16,731 bases of DNA from Candidatus Saccharicenans sp. Lineage in GTDB: Bacteria; Acidobacteriota; Aminicenantia; Aminicenantales; Saccharicenantaceae. Below the pieces are notes generated by a model, which was given only the letters and a program-made list of their open reading frames with translations, was not told where the DNA came from and did no database searches. The DNA is taken from NCBI GenBank assembly GCA_024653405.1, contig JANLGB010000003.1:11968-28698 (forward strand), in the 5' to 3' direction. Position 1 is the first letter of the stretch; every line of letters starts with the position of its first letter. Made by a program: the position numbers and the translations under genes. Of this stretch, positions 3,421 to 16,033 are shown in pieces.

Positions 3421-4776
3421 TTAAAACACCTGGGCCAGGGCCTGGCGGACCGAGGTCACTCCCAGGCAGCGGATGCCCTTGAGGTTTTCTCCCTGAAGCT
3501 GGGGCAGATTGCCGGCCGGCATCAGCACCGTTTCCAAGCCCAAGGACCGGGCTTCCTTGACTCTGGCCATCGGCTGGCTGACCGAGCGGATTTCCCCGCT
3601 CAGCCCGACCTCCCCGAAGACGGCCAGTTCTCGCGGCAGCGGCAGATTTTTGATGGAGGAAATGACCGATAGCACCACACCCAGGTCGGCCGCCGGCTCA
3701 GCCACTTCCAGGCCACCGGCCACGTTCAGATAGATGTCCTCTCCGGCAAAGCTGTAACCAACTTTCTTTTCCACCAGGGCCAGCAGCATCGACACCCGGT
3801 AATGGTCCAGGCCAATAGACATCCGGCGCGGATTGCCAGAAAACAGGGTGGACGAGACCAGAGCCTGGATTTCCACCAGAAGCGGTCGCGAACCCTTGAT
3901 GGTGGCTACCACCACGCTGCCCGGCTCATTCTGGGGCCTTTCCCGCAGAAAGAAAGCCGAGGGATTATCTATGGGCTGCAAGCCGGACTGGCTCATTTCA
4001 AAAATGGCCAGTTCCGAAACTGGGCCGAAGCGGTTTTTCAGCACCCGCAGTACCCGGTGATTATGGTCCCTCTCTCCCTCGAACAAAAGTACCACATCCA
4101 CCATGTGTTCCAGGGACTTTGGTCCGGCCAGGCTGCCTTCCTTGGTGATATGCCCGATCAGGAAAACCGGAATCTGGTTGCGCTTGGCCAGGCGGAAGAC
4201 CCAGTTGGTTACTTCACGCACCTGGCTGATGGTGCCCGGGCTGGAAGTCAACTGGGGAGAAAAGATGGTCTGGACGGAATCGATGACCAGAGCCCTGGGC
4301 TTCATGCGGTCGGCGGCGTTCAGGATTCTTTCCAGGCTGGTTTCGGCCAGGAGGAAGACTTTCTCCCGGCTCAGACCGAGCCGGTCTCCCCGAAGCTTGA
4401 TCTGTTCCAGGGATTCCTCGCCAGATACATACAACACCGGGCTGCCTTCGGCTGCCAGGTCGCGCGACACCTGGAGCAGAAGGGTGGATTTGCCGATGCC
4501 CGGCTCACCGCCAATCAGGACCACCGAACCCAGCACCAGCCCGCCGCCCAGGACGTTATTGAACTGGTCGATGCCAACCGGGATTCTCTGGCTGGTGGTT
4601 TCCTTTATATCTTCGTAAAGAACCGGTTCGCCGCCGCTCTCCGGGAGCTCCGGGGCCAATTCTTCTTCCAGCTCCTCGACCATGGTGTTCCATTCGCCGC
4701 ACTGGCTGCAGCGGCCTAGCCACTTGGGCGAATGAAAACCGCAGTTCTGGCAGACAAAAACCGTTCCCTTTTTCAT
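3421..4776 (-). CDS. radA: DNA repair protein RadA (Sms)
   Basis: RadA is a RecA-like ATPase that drives branch migration during recombinational repair. The 451 residues show the complete family layout: a zinc finger with Cys9, Cys12, Cys23 and Cys26; a RecA-type ATPase core with Walker A GEPGIGKST at 90-98; the RadA-specific KNRFG motif at 247-251; and a C-terminal Lon-protease-like domain, which in this family lacks protease activity. The length is normal. Its ATG overlaps the mlaD stop as ATGA (4773-4776), so the two are probably translationally coupled, with GGAG five bases before the start. Being downstream of a lipid transport operon looks like operon packing rather than shared function. 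Confidence 0.97.
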   Translation of the reverse strand: MKKGTVFVCQNCGFHSPKWLGRCSQCGEWNTMVEELEEELAPELPESGGEPVLYEDIKETTSQRIPVGIDQFNNVLGGGLVLGSVVLIGGEPGIGKSTLLLQVSRDLAAEGSPVLYVSGEESLEQIKLRGDRLGLSREKVFLLAETSLERILNAADRMKPRALVIDSVQTIFSPQLTSSPGTISQVREVTNWVFRLAKRNQIPVFLIGHITKEGSLAGPKSLEHMVDVVLLFEGERDHNHRVLRVLKNRFGPVSELAIFEMSQSGLQPIDNPSAFFLRERPQNEPGSVVVATIKGSRPLLVEIQALVSSTLFSGNPRRMSIGLDHYRVSMLLALVEKKVGYSFAGEDIYLNVAGGLEVAEPAADLGVVLSVISSIKNLPLPRELAVFGEVGLSGEIRSVSQPMARVKEARSLGLETVLMPAGNLPQLQGENLKGIRCLGVTSVRQALAQVF

Positions 4777-6086
4777 CTGAGCTCCAGCCCCAGGCCGAAG
4801 AAGATTTCCCGGCGCTCGGCCAGGGAAAAATCATCCAGCCCCAACAGCAAATATAAGTTTTTAACCGGATAAATCCGTCCATAAACTCTGAATTGCGGCC
4901 GGGGGGTCCGGTTGAAATCAAAAGCTTCAGCGCTCAGCGCCAGCCGGCTGTTGAACAGGTACCAATCCAGTCCAGCCCCGAACCGGCTTTCAATCAAGCC
5001 ACCCCGGGCCACCAGCCACCGCCAGCGCCAACCGGCCTCCAGGGAATAGACAAACTTATCTTCCCAGGGATTATGGATAAGACCGGCCGAGAGCAGGGCC
5101 CGGCCCTTCCACCAGAGGCGGCCGTAGATTGACCCCTTGAACAGTTCACTGCTGCCGTAATAAGCCCCCTGGACCCCGCCCCCGAAATCAAAAGCCGAGA
5201 CAGAGGTGGTAATCCTTTTAATCTGGCCCACGGTTTCCCGGGCCTCGTCATAAAGGTCCGGTTCCTGGACCAGCTTGCCGGCAGTGCCTTCGCCTTTCTC
5301 TATTCTGCCCAGCACCGTCTGCAACGTTTCCAGCGATTCCTGCAGCCCGGTGAGGGCTTCATCCAGCTTCTTGAGACTGTCCTGAATACCGGGCCGGTTT
5401 TCCTGGACCAGGCCCTTGATCTCGTTCAGGGTCTCCTGCAGCCTTTTGGAGACTGTTTCCACTTCCTGGTTGATGGTGCTGAAAGTCTGGCCGGAATCTT
5501 CTAAGGCCTGGTGCAGAGAAGAACGGTTCTCTTTGAGTAAGCTGTCGAACTCCCCGGTCAGCGAGGCCAGGTTTTCCAGCGTTTTTCTCAAGTTGGGGCC
5601 CAGGTCTTTCTGCAACACGCTGTTGACCGAAGCCGCCACCTTCTTAATATCTTCCCCCAGGGACATGAGCTGGGTTCCTAACTGGTCAAAACTGATCGGC
5701 GGGAGGGAGTCCATGACTTCTTCGGGCCCGTAGAAGGAAGCTTCCCGGCCGGGGACGATTTCCACATATTTTTCCCCCAGGATGCCGAGCGAAGCCAGGG
5801 TGGCTTTGGAGCCATGGGGAATCCGGTAATCGGGATAAATGCTCATGGTGACCCTGGCCCGGCGCCCGTCCAGGGCGATGCCCTTGACCAGGCCGATTTT
5901 GATCCCGGCCATCTTGACCGCGGCATTCTTTTCAAGCCCCAGAGCTGAATCGAAAACGGCGTAAACCCGGTAGCCCTGTTTCTTGAACAGCTCCTGCACA
6001 TCGCCCACGGACAATATCAGCACGGCCAGCAGCAGAAAAAAGCCCGAGAGAAAAAGGCCTACTTTCATTTCCCGTTTCATCGTCAT
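4773..6086 (-). CDS. mlaD: MlaD-like MCE protein with long helical region and beta-barrel-like C-terminus
   Basis: This is the substrate-binding MCE subunit of an Mla-type phospholipid transporter. The 437 residues start with a membrane anchor (about 9-27), followed by one MCE domain (about 36-113, including the GLEKNAAVKMAGIKIG and LGILGEKYVEI segments). Next comes a long, mostly helical heptad-rich stretch (about 130-295). The tail (about 305-437) is made of alternating short stretches rich in Tyr, Trp, Phe, Gly and Leu separated by turns, such as KGSIYGRLWW, FVYSLEAGWRW and EIFFGLGLELR; I count around ten possible strands. E. coli MlaD is only about 180 residues and has none of this. The layout resembles the long MlaD with a C-terminal barrel described in the diderm Firmicute Veillonella. 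I chose the ATG at 6086 because GAGGAGAG lies just upstream; longer starts would overlap mlaF. Confidence 0.88.
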   Translation of the reverse strand: MTMKREMKVGLFLSGFFLLLAVLILSVGDVQELFKKQGYRVYAVFDSALGLEKNAAVKMAGIKIGLVKGIALDGRRARVTMSIYPDYRIPHGSKATLASLGILGEKYVEIVPGREASFYGPEEVMDSLPPISFDQLGTQLMSLGEDIKKVAASVNSVLQKDLGPNLRKTLENLASLTGEFDSLLKENRSSLHQALEDSGQTFSTINQEVETVSKRLQETLNEIKGLVQENRPGIQDSLKKLDEALTGLQESLETLQTVLGRIEKGEGTAGKLVQEPDLYDEARETVGQIKRITTSVSAFDFGGGVQGAYYGSSELFKGSIYGRLWWKGRALLSAGLIHNPWEDKFVYSLEAGWRWRWLVARGGLIESRFGAGLDWYLFNSRLALSAEAFDFNRTPRPQFRVYGRIYPVKNLYLLLGLDDFSLAERREIFFGLGLELR

Positions 6087-6096
6087 TATTCTCTCC

Positions 6097-6849
6097 TCAC
6101 CACTCAGTAATCGGTCCTTCGGCCCGGCCATTGATGAATTGCTGGACCACCGGGTTGGCTGAATTTCTGATATCCTCCGGCGTGCCCACTTCTATAATTC
6201 GGCCGTCATAGAGCATGGCTACCCGGTCGGCCACCTTGTAGGTGGTATTCATGTCATGAGTGATTATGACTGAAGTCACCCTCAGCTTCTCTTTGAGCTG
6301 CAATATCAGGCAATTGATGGCATCAGCCCGGATGGGGTCGAGGCCAGTGGTCGGTTCATCATAAAGAACTATTTCCGGGCTGTAGGCGATGGCCCGGGCC
6401 AGCCCCACTCTTTTCTTCATCCCGCCCGAAAGTTCATAGGGCAGCAGGTTTTCCACTCCCCGCAACCCGACCTGTTCCAGGCTCTCCCGCACCAGCCGCT
6501 GTATTTCGGCCTCTCCCAGAGTAGTATGTCGCCTCAGGCCGAAAGCTACATTTTCGGCCACGGTCAGGGAATCAAACAGGGCCGCGCCCTGAAACAGCAG
6601 GCCGAATTTCCGGCTGAGTTTCATTATTTCCTCGTCGGGCAGGGCCGAGATTTCCCGACCGTCGATGAAGACTTGGCCGCGGTCGGGTTTCATGATGCCG
6701 ATGATGTGTTTCAGAAGAACGCTCTTCCCCGAGCCGCTCTGCCCGATGATGACCATGGTCTCGCCGGCTTGAATTTCCAGGTTCAGGCCTTTAAGGACTT
6801 GTTTGCCCTCGAACGATTTGTGCAGGTCAACAATCTTTATCTTGCTCAT
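6097..6849 (-). CDS. mlaF: MlaF-like phospholipid transport ATPase
   Basis: This cytoplasmic ATPase of the MlaEFD complex energises lipid movement between the inner membrane and the MCE protein. Over 250 residues it shows Walker A GQSGSGKS at 36-43, the Q-loop in LLFQGAALFDSLTVAENV (a sequence typical of MlaF), signature LSGGMKKRVGLARA, Walker B IVLYDEPTTGLDP and the switch His in IITHDMNT. It begins 6 bases after the mlaE stop and ends 10 bases before the mlaD start, so mlaE, mlaF and mlaD form one unit. No STAS-domain MlaB is encoded nearby. Confidence 0.95.
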   Translation of the reverse strand: MSKIKIVDLHKSFEGKQVLKGLNLEIQAGETMVIIGQSGSGKSVLLKHIIGIMKPDRGQVFIDGREISALPDEEIMKLSRKFGLLFQGAALFDSLTVAENVAFGLRRHTTLGEAEIQRLVRESLEQVGLRGVENLLPYELSGGMKKRVGLARAIAYSPEIVLYDEPTTGLDPIRADAINCLILQLKEKLRVTSVIITHDMNTTYKVADRVAMLYDGRIIEVGTPEDIRNSANPVVQQFINGRAEGPITEW

Positions 6850-6855
6850 TGGCTA

Positions 6856-7638
6856 TCACAGGGTGGCCGGCAGAACCTTGCTCAGGAAGAAATTGAGAAT
6901 CAGGATGGTGATGCTGGCCACCACCACCGACTTGGTGGTGGCCCGGCCGACGCCTTCCGCTCCCCCTTCGGCTGTCATGCCCTGCCAGCAACCGACAATG
7001 GCTATCACCAGCCCGAACACCAGGGCCTTGATCAAGCCGACAGAAATATCCCACATCTCGAAATATTTCAATGTATTCTGGAGGTACAGTGTCTTGTTGA
7101 CTTTCATCAACAGGACGTTATAGGCATAGCCGCCGAAGATGCCGATGACATCTCCGTACAGGGTCAGGCAGGGCACCATGATCATGCTGGCCAGGATCCG
7201 GGGAGCCACCAGGTACTTAACCGGGTTAGCCCCGAGGCTGAACAAAGCATCGATCTGCTCGGTTATCTTCATGGTCCCGATTTCCGCGGCCATGGCTGAA
7301 CCCACCCGCCCGGCCACCATCAACCCAACCAGGATGGGAATCAGCTCCCGGCACAGGCCGACCGCGATGATCGGCCCTCCCTGTGATTCTGAGCCCGGCC
7401 CGATATAGCGGTGGAAAGCCAGGTAGGCCTGCAGGCCAAACACCAAGCCACCGAAAGCTGCGGTCAGGGAGACCACCGGCAGGGAATTAACTCCGACCTC
7501 TTCCAGTTGCTGCCAGAAATTTCTTTTCTCGAAGGGCTTTTGAAAGATGGCCCTGAAGCCTCTGACGGCCAGGTCATAGACCTGGCCCAGCTCGCAGAAA
7601 AAATTTCCGAAAAAAGGTATCCAGATTCGCTTTTCCAT
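6856..7638 (-). CDS. mlaE: MlaE-like phospholipid transport permease
   Basis: This is the inner-membrane permease of the Mla system and probably acts as a dimer with MlaF and MlaD. The 260 residues carry about five hydrophobic segments and the family hallmark ELIPILVGLMVAGRVGSA, then EIGTMKITEQIDALFSLGANP, which contacts the ATPase. The N-terminus (ELGQVYDLAVRGFRAIF) forms the amphipathic helix typical of MlaE. It starts only 9 bases after dnaB ends, with a weak ribosome site (GAGGAAG is about 14 bases away), so translation may depend on coupling with dnaB. No MlaA or MlaC gene is present in the window. Confidence 0.94.
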   Translation of the reverse strand: MEKRIWIPFFGNFFCELGQVYDLAVRGFRAIFQKPFEKRNFWQQLEEVGVNSLPVVSLTAAFGGLVFGLQAYLAFHRYIGPGSESQGGPIIAVGLCRELIPILVGLMVAGRVGSAMAAEIGTMKITEQIDALFSLGANPVKYLVAPRILASMIMVPCLTLYGDVIGIFGGYAYNVLLMKVNKTLYLQNTLKYFEMWDISVGLIKALVFGLVIAIVGCWQGMTAEGGAEGVGRATTKSVVVASITILILNFFLSKVLPATL

Positions 7639-12643: not shown

Positions 12644-13548
12644 GTGCCGAGCTCTTGCCAGTACTTCTCCCGTCCGACAGTCTCTACCAGCCAAACCTGA
12701 TAGTTGCGGGCGAACCTGCCGGCAGCCTGCTGGGCCAGGGACGGTTCCTGAAACCAGCCAAAGACAGCTGACCCCGATCCGCTTAACAGGGATAACTCCG
12801 CCCCCGCGGCGGCCATTTCCCTCTTCATCTCAGCCAGCTGAGGATATATCTTAAAAGCTACCGGTTCTAAATCGTTTCTTAAATGCTTGAATGTAAGAAA
12901 GTTCTTAGACTCTAAAAACTCCATAATTTTACTTTCTTTACCAGTTGAAGTCAAGAAGCCCGACAGACGGTCAAACTCCCCGTAAACCATGGCCGTGGAA
13001 ACAGGAAAATCGGGCACCACCAGGAGCACCCAGGCCGGCGCCAATTCCGGCAGCAGCTGTAATAGCTCGCCCTTCCCCTGGCCCAGACAGAGCCCCCCGT
13101 GCAGGAAAAAGGGGACATCAGCCCCCAGGAATGTGGCCAGCTGGTGCAGTTTCTCTGGGCTGAGATGGAGCTCCCACAGACGGTTGAGGGCCAGCAAGGT
13201 GACGGCGGCGTTGCTGCTGCCGCCGGCCAGTCCCCGCCCGGGCGGGATGGTCTTGTTCACGCTGATGCTAACCCCGGGCCTTCGGCCGCAAGCCTGGCGC
13301 AGAAGAAGGGCGGCGCGGTAGATCAGGTTGGCTTCATCCCAGGGGACATCAGGGCGGTTCCCGGCCAGGGAAATTTCCCCGTCCGGGCGAATTTCAAAAG
13401 TCAAGCGGTCCTTGAGGTTAACCGTCTGGAAAAGGGTGGTTAATTGATGATAACCGTCCTCCCGGCGCCGACCCACTTCCAGCCCGAGATTGATTTTGGC
13501 CAGTGAGCTGGCGGTTATTTTTTCCATCGGCCTGAAATTTCTTCCCAT
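12634..13548 (-). CDS. ispE: 4-diphosphocytidyl-2-C-methyl-D-erythritol kinase IspE
   Basis: IspE phosphorylates CDP-methylerythritol with ATP, the step before IspF in the non-mevalonate pathway. It is a GHMP kinase. In the 304-residue form, the catalytic Lys18 lies in LAKINLGLEV, the ATP-binding glycine-rich loop is PPGRGLAGGSSNAAV at about 102-116, and the catalytic Asp144 lies in GADVPFF. A C-terminal LLSGSGSAVFGWF is the third GHMP motif. Two starts are possible. ATG 13548 has a strong AGGAAG six bases upstream; ATG 13527 gives the more usual N-terminus (MEKITASSLAKINL) but has a weak site. The stop TAG (12634-12636) lies inside tRNA-Gln, so the last codons share bases with the tRNA acceptor stem. 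It overlaps the end of the lolB-like gene. Confidence 0.94.
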   Translation of the reverse strand: MGRNFRPMEKITASSLAKINLGLEVGRRREDGYHQLTTLFQTVNLKDRLTFEIRPDGEISLAGNRPDVPWDEANLIYRAALLLRQACGRRPGVSISVNKTIPPGRGLAGGSSNAAVTLLALNRLWELHLSPEKLHQLATFLGADVPFFLHGGLCLGQGKGELLQLLPELAPAWVLLVVPDFPVSTAMVYGEFDRLSGFLTSTGKESKIMEFLESKNFLTFKHLRNDLEPVAFKIYPQLAEMKREMAAAGAELSLLSGSGSAVFGWFQEPSLAQQAAGRFARNYQVWLVETVGREKYWQELGTGA

Positions 13549-14228
13549 TCGAGCTTCCTGGTTCCGGCCGGAAGAGAGGGCCGAAAAATCGTTTCCGGCC
13601 GAGGCCGGTTAAAATTGACTTTAAGCAGCCTCATTCTAACGCTGTAGTCAGGCGATGAAAAATGAACTGTTTTCGGCACCCGGCCCGGAGCAAAAGTTTC
13701 TTTGATTTCAAAGCTCAGGCCATCCCGCTTCCCGGAGACCACCTTACCTGACTCATCGACCCGGAACTGCCAGCCGTCATCGGCTGCCAGTTCGGACCAA
13801 CGTCCGGCAATAATCCTCGTCAGTTCCCGGCCTGGCAATTCCCGGCCAAAAACCTCAGAGGTTAGCACCCGGCTCTCGTCCTCCCAGAAAACTCTATCTT
13901 CCGGCAGGTGCAGGGTGGCTCGTTCGCCGTTGAGCCAGACGATGGTTTGCAACCGGCCCAGGGGGTCAAATAGCTCCAGCCTGACCTGATCCTCCAGCCG
14001 ACAATAGAAACGCAGGCGAAAGCGGGCTGCCCCCTCAGGTCCCTGCAGGGAAAAGGAGGCCTGGCCGTCAAGATAATCAAGCCTTTCGGGCGGGACCAGC
14101 CGCATCGGAGAAGGCCGGCAACCAACCAGCGCTAAAAGACAAAGCCAGCCCAGCCATAAAAAAAGAATTGCCGGATTGGACTTCAGCCTGCCCCCTCTCT
14201 TGCTCCCGCCGGCCTGCGGCACCACCAC
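13515..14228 (-). CDS. LolB-like outer-membrane lipoprotein
   Basis: This is a predicted lipoprotein of 237 residues. A basic N-region and hydrophobic core lead to the lipobox LVGC at 34-37. The next residue is Arg, not Asp, so outer-membrane sorting is expected. The mature part is rich in beta strands (ASFSLQGPEGAARFRLRF, RLELFDPLGRLQTIVWLNGE) and fits the LolB/LolA fold that inserts lipoproteins into the outer membrane; sequence identity to LolB looks low. The position directly before ispE and prs matches the lolB-ispE-prs order of proteobacteria, which is the best support for the name. Three GTG codons in a row can start it; the third (14222) is best spaced from AAGGAG. A general DUF-type lipoprotein is the alternative. 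Confidence 0.75.
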   Translation of the reverse strand: MVVPQAGGSKRGGRLKSNPAILFLWLGWLCLLALVGCRPSPMRLVPPERLDYLDGQASFSLQGPEGAARFRLRFYCRLEDQVRLELFDPLGRLQTIVWLNGERATLHLPEDRVFWEDESRVLTSEVFGRELPGRELTRIIAGRWSELAADDGWQFRVDESGKVVSGKRDGLSFEIKETFAPGRVPKTVHFSSPDYSVRMRLLKVNFNRPRPETIFRPSLPAGTRKLEWEEISGRWKK

Positions 14229-14571: not shown

Positions 14572-16017
14572 TCAGTCGTGAAAAACGATGGCTTCGAATT
14601 TTGACAGCGATTTTAAGTCCTTCCAGGCTCCGTCCGGCAAACCGGCTTTGCGGCATAGTTCCCGCAGGAAGGTCTGGCGGTCCCAGCCGAATTCGCTGGC
14701 CACCTGGGGCAGGAGGAGGCCGCTGCGACCTCCCTGCTTGATGACCAGGCCATGTCGGCCAACCTTGATTTCAGAAACATCCTTAACCGGCTGCAGCGGA
14801 CCCAGGACTGAAATCTCAATTTCCAGGTCTTTCAATTCTGCTTTTCGCAGCGGGGGAAACCTGGGGTCCTCGGTGGCGGCCAGGACGGCAGCCTTAGCCA
14901 CCGTCTGCCAGAGAGGAAACAGGGGTTCAGCAAATCCGATGCAACCCCGAAGCTGGTTATGTTCTTTCAGGGTGACGAAAGCTCCAGCCGGTGTTTCCAG
15001 GCGAGGCTGGACCGGCTGGTAGCTGATCATTTCCCGTGACTCCAGAAAAACTTCGATGGCCTGCCTGGCCAGGCTCAGCAATTCTTTCTTTTCTGCCGGG
15101 CTCAGGTCGGCCCAGCCCGCCGCCTTCTCCAGGCAGACCGCGGCTGAGAGATAGCCCACCACCCGGTCAGCCGGCCCGCCGACCGCGGCCGAGTCAGAAT
15201 AGGACAGAACTTCCACCCGGGGCCTTCCCAGTTTCCTGGCATATTGCAGCAGGGTCAGAACCGGCCCGCTGCCGCACATAATATTTTCTTGTCTTTCCAT
15301 CTTCCGGGTCAGGGTTTTAAGGTCGAGCTGCCGCAGGAGGTCGATCGTCTTCTGGTCAAGTTCATTGGCCTCAGCCCGGGAAAGGAAGTGAGACAGGTCG
15401 GTAGAAGCCACCACCAGAACTTTTTTTCCGGACAGGGCTCGGGCCAGAGCCCCGGCCAGCGCCTGGACCGTGCTCTCGGTCTGGTAGCCCATGACCACCG
15501 GCACAATTCTGGCCCCGGGGAAGACCTTCTGGATAAAGGGCACCTGGACTTCTATCGAATGCTCGCGGGCATGAGCCTCCGGTATGTAACCGAACCCGGA
15601 CAGGCGCGACAGCTCCCTGGCCAGGGTAGCGTCCACTTCCGCCACCCCCAGGGGAGTTTCAAACCCTCCCCGAAGGTAGATAGAGCAACCCTCAAAACCG
15701 TATTGATGGGAGGGGCCGATTATGACCACGGAGTCTACCGGCCGGTCCTTCACCAGGCTGTAGCCGCAGGCCGCCACCCGTCCAGAATAGACATATCCGG
15801 CATGGGGGGAAATCAGGCCCACCACCTCTCCCCCAACTGACCGGCCTCCAGCTTCAGACAGGTAGACATCCAGCAGCCGACTGAGCTTAGCCGGGTCGGC
15901 CTCATAAAACTGCCCGGCCCAGACCGGTTTCCTCAGCCCCTGAGCCCAGAGACCGGCCACCAGGAAGAGCAGCTGCCAGCCAAGAAAGACCCGAACTAAC
16001 CAGGACTTTCTTATCAT
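14572..16017 (-). CDS. Exported MEMO-AMMECR1 fusion protein (AmmeMemoRadiSam proteins B and A)
   Basis: Two families are fused in 481 residues. A probable signal peptide comes first (basic MIRK, then hydrophobic residues 7-23, with a likely cut near LWA-Q at 25/26). The MEMO domain (about 28-298) contains PHAGYVYSG with His72, GPSHQYGFEGC with His104, EHSIEVQVPF at 152-161 and MCGSG with Cys248. These match the two His and one Cys metal ligands of human MEMO1. The AMMECR1 domain (about 308-480) carries LRGCIG at 356-361. The usual third member, a radical SAM enzyme, is not in the window. The exact reaction is unknown for the family. I chose ATG 16017 because GGTGGAGG lies five bases upstream; a GTG at 16029 falls within that site. 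Confidence 0.9.
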   Translation of the reverse strand: MIRKSWLVRVFLGWQLLFLVAGLWAQGLRKPVWAGQFYEADPAKLSRLLDVYLSEAGGRSVGGEVVGLISPHAGYVYSGRVAACGYSLVKDRPVDSVVIIGPSHQYGFEGCSIYLRGGFETPLGVAEVDATLARELSRLSGFGYIPEAHAREHSIEVQVPFIQKVFPGARIVPVVMGYQTESTVQALAGALARALSGKKVLVVASTDLSHFLSRAEANELDQKTIDLLRQLDLKTLTRKMERQENIMCGSGPVLTLLQYARKLGRPRVEVLSYSDSAAVGGPADRVVGYLSAAVCLEKAAGWADLSPAEKKELLSLARQAIEVFLESREMISYQPVQPRLETPAGAFVTLKEHNQLRGCIGFAEPLFPLWQTVAKAAVLAATEDPRFPPLRKAELKDLEIEISVLGPLQPVKDVSEIKVGRHGLVIKQGGRSGLLLPQVASEFGWDRQTFLRELCRKAGLPDGAWKDLKSLSKFEAIVFHD

Positions 16018-16033
16018 CTCTGCCTCCACCTGA

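Follow-up and report, generated by a model that had tools for sequence, protein, structure and literature searches.

The window analysed here, a stretch of 16,731 nucleotides from a Candidatus Saccharicenans genome, carries an mla operon on its minus strand in which mlaE and mlaF share the operon with a long mlaD (Table 1). The mlaD frame (6086 to 4773) is open and starts with ATG, and the gene order reads dnaB–mlaE–mlaF–mlaD–radA, with dnaB (PF03796, E 4.7e-98) upstream of the mla genes and radA (TIGR00416, E 3.3e-167) directly after mlaD, whose end it overlaps by 4 bases. This order is conserved in all five fully flanked relatives (L003–L007), and mlaE–mlaF–mlaD–radA is retained in a sixth (L002), the sequence of which starts within mlaE. 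In six loci from records named Candidatus Saccharicenans, Aminicenantes or Acidobacteria/Acidobacteriota, MlaD is 66–95% identical to that of the window. In one more locus (L008), mlaD is the sole window gene matched; this contig bears a Campylobacterales label, its long MlaD relative shows 27% identity, and the bin is possibly mislabelled. The source genome itself is metagenome-assembled (2.31 Mb in 356 contigs, 80% complete), and a profile search found a single MCE domain in it.

Table 1. Features of the mla locus, in positions of the window; residue numbers refer to MlaD.
Feature	Position	Strand	Evidence
mlaE, permease	6856..7638	-	PF02405 E 2.5e-77; TIGR00056 above cut-off
mlaF, ABC ATPase	6097..6849	-	PF00005 E 9.3e-34; PRK11831 MlaF model E 4.8e-60, under cut-off
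Shine-Dalgarno-like GAGGAG, 6 bases 5' of the mlaD ATG	6093..6098	-	read from sequence
mlaD, 437-aa MCE protein with a barrel tail	4773..6086	-	ORF; Pfam MlaD E 3.2e-22; AF2 model
N-terminal inner-membrane helix, residues 5-27	6006..6074	-	AF2 helix; hydrophobic sequence
MCE domain, residues 39-127	5706..5972	-	MCE strands in AF2 model
Helical needle, residues 133-296, segmented	5199..5690	-	low-confidence AF2 helices; five amphipathic segments
Glycine motif GEGTAGKL, residues 265-272, joining needle and barrel	5271..5294	-	alignment
Ten-stranded C-terminal beta-barrel, residues 299-436	4779..5192	-	AF2, barrel superposition, residue-pattern tests

MlaD is predicted to consist of a transmembrane helix, one MCE domain, a helical stretch and a ten-stranded barrel with membrane-type features. 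Pfam MlaD (PF02470) matches a single stretch, residues 37–113, and an AF2 monomer model, built from an alignment of the window protein with 85 homologues, reached a mean pLDDT of 71.4 and a pTM of 0.40, at which the relative placement of the domains is not predicted. Confidence is high in the tail, where ten-residue blocks over residues 301–437 score 84–95, and low in the helical span (33–54). Besides the transmembrane helix at 5–27, the model contains helices at 133–157, 164–186, 188–194, 202–227, 232–263 and 278–296, followed by strands at 299–310, 315–326, 330–339, 344–355, 358–365, 368–377, 382–389, 398–408, 411–418 and 427–436. The original prediction, made from the letters alone, of one MCE domain, a long and mostly helical span and a barrel-like tail ending in GLGLELR is thus borne out by Pfam and AF2 alike, and its estimate of about ten strands becomes exactly ten in the model. 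Its picture of a single continuous helix of 165 residues is not supported, since AF2 gives several helices instead. In the glycine motif, G267 is invariant, and G265, G270 and L272 are present in at least 90% of the 86 alignment rows.

The homologue search gave 169 matches among 7998 scored candidates, the best 120 of which were listed; 85 of these entered the alignment, 58 at 40–95% and 27 at 24–31% identity, and the architecture is conserved among them. Among the matches listed, some close homologues are named Aminicenantes or Saccharicenans, while the near full-length ones at 24–31% identity over their length include some named Deltaproteobacteria, Proteobacteria, Desulfarculaceae or Holophaga. 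These latter also carry the barrel, as judged from sequence, and share GGLIES..G.G.DY, EAFDF and DDF with the window protein. They differ from it in the strand 3–strand 4 loop, which has 4 residues in the window protein and a median length of 32 among the 27 distant rows, and the distant rows shown extend some 15–20 residues past the last strand. Listed matches of 322–365 aa cover just ~59–67% of the query, and the one inspected in its entirety (P0104) ends without a barrel. The precomputed Pfam family PF27164 is found on full-length listed matches and is absent from these shorter ones, from which we infer that it corresponds to the barrel or a part of it. One match of 546 aa (P0074) appears as an MlaF–MlaD fusion with a scrambled barrel end and looks frameshifted rather than truly fused. 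An MCE protein of 312 aa is also present in the PDB (13hr).

Across the phylum, we sampled 198 genomes from 122 genera, all at least 85% complete except for the source genome. An MCE domain was detected in 187 of them and a barrel-profile match in 56, distributed over 35 genera, although the match spans just about half of the profile in G066 and G107. Since every barrel match lies in an open frame of at least 436 aa, there is no short stand-alone barrel gene in this sample. Of 20 loci compared with a crude text pattern requiring MCE domain and barrel within a single frame, 16 fitted and four did not.

Five segments of the helical span are amphipathic, with 4, 151, 23, 5 and 100 of 5000 shuffles being equally strong, which is the pattern expected of a bundle with a greasy inside. 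Together, these segments comprise 133 residues, equivalent to ~20 nm as a straight helix, and the whole span of 133–296 would reach ~25 nm if entirely helical; due to the helix breaks and the low confidence, both lengths serve as a rough upper guide only. For Veillonella parvula, a tunnel of ~23.5 nm has been compared with a periplasm of 24.2 nm (PMC10665443).

For the tail, residue patterns argue for insertion into a membrane. The alternation of hydrophobic and other residues over the ten strands amounts to 0.468 in comparison to 0.244 +/- 0.062 in shuffles, a value reached by 1 of 5000, and the barrel displays aromatic girdles as well as a final-strand motif. A higher conservation of the polar barrel interior over the exterior was tested and was not significant. 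The tail could also be a soluble, calycin-like barrel of the nitrobindin or lipocalin type, residing in the periplasm, binding lipid and passing it to the outer membrane without insertion. We regard this as unlikely, since the best transmembrane barrels match the tail with better Z-scores and rmsd values, since girdles and final-strand motif are present, and since the barrel of V. parvula MlaD is recovered in the outer-membrane fraction (PMC10665443). A soluble or all-helical C-terminus, the outcome which the original prediction had named as speaking against itself, was not found in the structure prediction.

A second alternative concerns the route of the lipid: the tails of several chains, three or more, would open and fuse into one larger, TolC-like barrel that passes lipid through the outer membrane. 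Grasekamp et al. raised a joint barrel for V. parvula on the grounds that lipid would not fit through the barrel as predicted (PMC10665443). Here, all ten strands are already predicted in one chain at high confidence and the tail superposes on single-chain ten-stranded barrels, rendering fusion very improbable. The earlier suggestion that three tails might form one barrel is not supported for the same reason. The central proposal of the original prediction, that one protein runs from the inner membrane through the periplasm into an outer-membrane barrel, is supported by the predicted structure, the residue patterns and the close fit to the published V. parvula architecture.

We therefore propose, with a probability of roughly three in four, that mlaD encodes the MCE subunit of a three-gene, V. 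parvula-type MlaEFD lipid transporter, in which the barrels act as anchors and lipid passes through the needle. Most likely, by analogy, six MlaD chains would assemble with MlaE and MlaF at the inner membrane, held by their N-terminal helices and the MCE ring, and their amphipathic helical segments would bundle into a hollow needle spanning the periplasm. Each chain would insert its own ten-stranded barrel into the outer membrane with N- and C-termini on the periplasmic side, so that the barrels pin the needle tip to the inner face of the outer membrane. Phospholipid would travel inside the needle, driven by MlaF, with the barrels being anchors and not the lipid route. We infer the hexamer, which is borrowed from the MCE-protein literature, as well as membrane insertion, lipid cargo and transport direction.

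By its architecture, the window MlaD adds one more member to the group of barrel-tailed MlaD proteins described in 2023. The V. parvula system likewise comprises MlaEFD only, with a transmembrane helix, one MCE domain, ~150–165 helical residues and a ten-stranded barrel, and was reported to have TamB in the genome and neither MlaA nor MlaC found (PMC10665443). The two differ in taxonomy (Negativicutes versus Aminicenantes of the Acidobacteriota), in the continuation of the operon (tolC–tamB versus radA), in the Lol route (V. parvula is reported to be without Lol, and a LolB-like gene lies nearby in the window) and in lipopolysaccharide, which V. parvula possesses (PMC10665443), whereas LpxC was not found in the genus of the window. 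E. coli MlaD, with 183 aa, lacks needle and barrel and relies on the partners MlaC and MlaA, unlike the protein studied here (PMC10665443). Closer in the needle are Brucella Mpc and E. coli PqiABC, in each of which the MCE protein bears a helical needle supposed to cross the periplasm; these are thought to dock via an octameric lipoprotein of the PqiC family (PMC12436622, PMC10897342). No such lipoprotein was detected in the genus of the window. PMC10665443 mentions phyla close to Proteobacteria; the string 'acidobacter' occurs zero times in its main text; the phylum may be covered in the supplements. No paper was found that joins MCE protein and MlaD with Acidobacteri- and barrel. The present analysis adds the breadth of the barrel in the phylum, a lipoprotein as alternative dock within one family, and the lack of an LpxC match.

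As for the absence of mlaA and mlaC, which the original prediction had taken as a sign of the bridge, neither MlaA nor MlaC was matched in the source genome (80% complete), with profiles that detected both in E. coli and Caulobacter, nor in the three other members of the Saccharicenans genus in the phylum sample. A six-component Mla system of the E. coli type, with MlaA and MlaC present, was thus not found. As an argument for the bridge, however, this absence is weak because it extends over the phylum irrespective of MlaD type: MlaA was unmatched in all 198 sampled genomes and MlaC in 196, and the only two genomes with MlaC-family matches (G034 and G049, both of genus g17) carry the barrel. 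About 7 kb from mlaD, a LolB-like gene is located at 13515–14228 (minus strand; PF03550, E 4.4e-07, above cut-off), which suggests that part of the Lol route is present in the source genome, yet MlaA was not matched.

Within the family of the window (f1), we sampled 34 genomes (G000–G033), of which 19 belong to the genus of the window (g1), one each to g2 (G001) and g3 (G002), and 13 to g4. The MlaD profile matched through the barrel in 18 of the 19 g1 genomes, the match in the remaining one (G028) covering positions 2–349 only, and the g2 genome holds MlaD as two contig-end fragments, the second with most of the barrel. In the 14 g3 and g4 genomes, the match stops at position 262 or earlier. 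The PqiC-family domain ABC_trans_aux (PF03886) was matched in 12 of these 14 and in none of the 20 g1 and g2 genomes (0/19 in g1 at E <= 0.001). We examined 12 g3/g4 loci from 11 of the 14 genomes, and in each a lipoprotein-like gene comes next after the MCE gene, the start codon of the former overlapping the stop codon of the latter. All 12 lipoprotein genes encode a hydrophobic N-terminus with a Cys at residue 17–21, nine with a strict lipobox, and one (L025) runs into Ns. For the two genomes missed by the profile (G013, and G005 at just E 0.0061), the family was called by eye from the proteins of neighbours, and in G004, G006 and G010 the PF03886 match lies 250–335 bases from the MCE match. 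In total, the pair of MCE protein and lipoprotein is present in all 14 g3 and g4 genomes. These operons, ordered mlaE–mlaF–MCE–lipoprotein, resemble Brucella Mpc, whose needle is believed to end in a cap formed by a PqiC-like lipoprotein (PMC12436622). Their MlaE is 30–35% and their MlaF 32–40% identical to those of the window over the 12 loci, and these low identities indicate that the two operons are of different types. The sequences suggest that the switch between barrel and lipoprotein was likely one exchange in the history of the family, not many independent events.

Over the phylum sample, PF03886 was matched in 10 of 198 genomes. Strict exclusion of barrel and PqiC-type lipoprotein at the genome level had to be rejected, since four of these ten (G107, G073, G095 and G195) have a barrel match too. 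In at least six (G008, G166, G132, G087, G095 and G106) the lipoprotein adjoins an MCE domain, and none of these six MCE genes is the barrel gene. Exclusion therefore applies to loci with both positions visible and does not extend to whole genomes.

LpxC catalyses the committed step of lipid A synthesis. It was found in the single g2 (G001, E 1.1e-86) and g3 (G002, E 6.5e-90) genomes and in none of the 19 g1 genomes (13 at least 90% complete) or the 13 g4 genomes (8 at least 90% complete), leaving 32 of 34 family genomes without a match. TamB was found in all 34, indicating that these genomes are searchable. The absence from every sampled g1 and g4 member makes conventional lipid A unlikely in these genera, as judged from LpxC as single marker. 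A search with the LpxC of G001 gave 1734 matches; among the best 120, the five carrying organism names are Aminicenantes, Aminicenantales or Acidobacteriota and none is Saccharicenans, which is weak evidence, the remaining listed matches being unnamed. No literature was found pairing Saccharicenans with lipopolysaccharide or Aminicenantes with LpxC, and the relevant passages of PMC6395817 state nothing on lipopolysaccharide in Aminicenantes.

All 19 sampled genomes of g1, a genus apparently free of lipopolysaccharide, retain the bridge, which, on the evidence of this absence, points to another task of MlaEFD or another outer-leaflet lipid. We give even odds to the broader proposal that a barrel-docked MlaEFD was kept in a diderm genus after loss of lipid A synthesis for a job other than removing phospholipid from a lipopolysaccharide leaflet, with barrel and PqiC-type lipoprotein serving as interchangeable docks of MCE needles in one family. 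Candidates for this job would be bulk exchange, export or the upkeep of some other lipid in the outer leaflet. The role of the barrel was left open for V. parvula, and most bacteria losing lipopolysaccharide are reported to have lost Mla as well (PMC10665443). A family with two docks, in which LpxC is found in two genera and unfound in two, consequently offers a natural experiment on the role of the barrel and on the joint loss of Mla and lipopolysaccharide, and the function of a barrel-tailed MlaD in an LpxC-less genus is worth testing.

As to its neighbours, lpxC has a dnaG gene close by in G001 and, in G002, a gene for an rpoD-like sigma-70 factor. TamB-family matches number two in 17 of the 19 g1 genomes, mostly in frames of ~1140 and ~2120 aa, and one per genome in the 13 g4 genomes. 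Elsewhere in the window, the frame 14572–16029 (minus strand) encodes one protein in which an AMMECR1 domain comes after a Memo domain and whose N-terminus resembles a signal peptide by eye.
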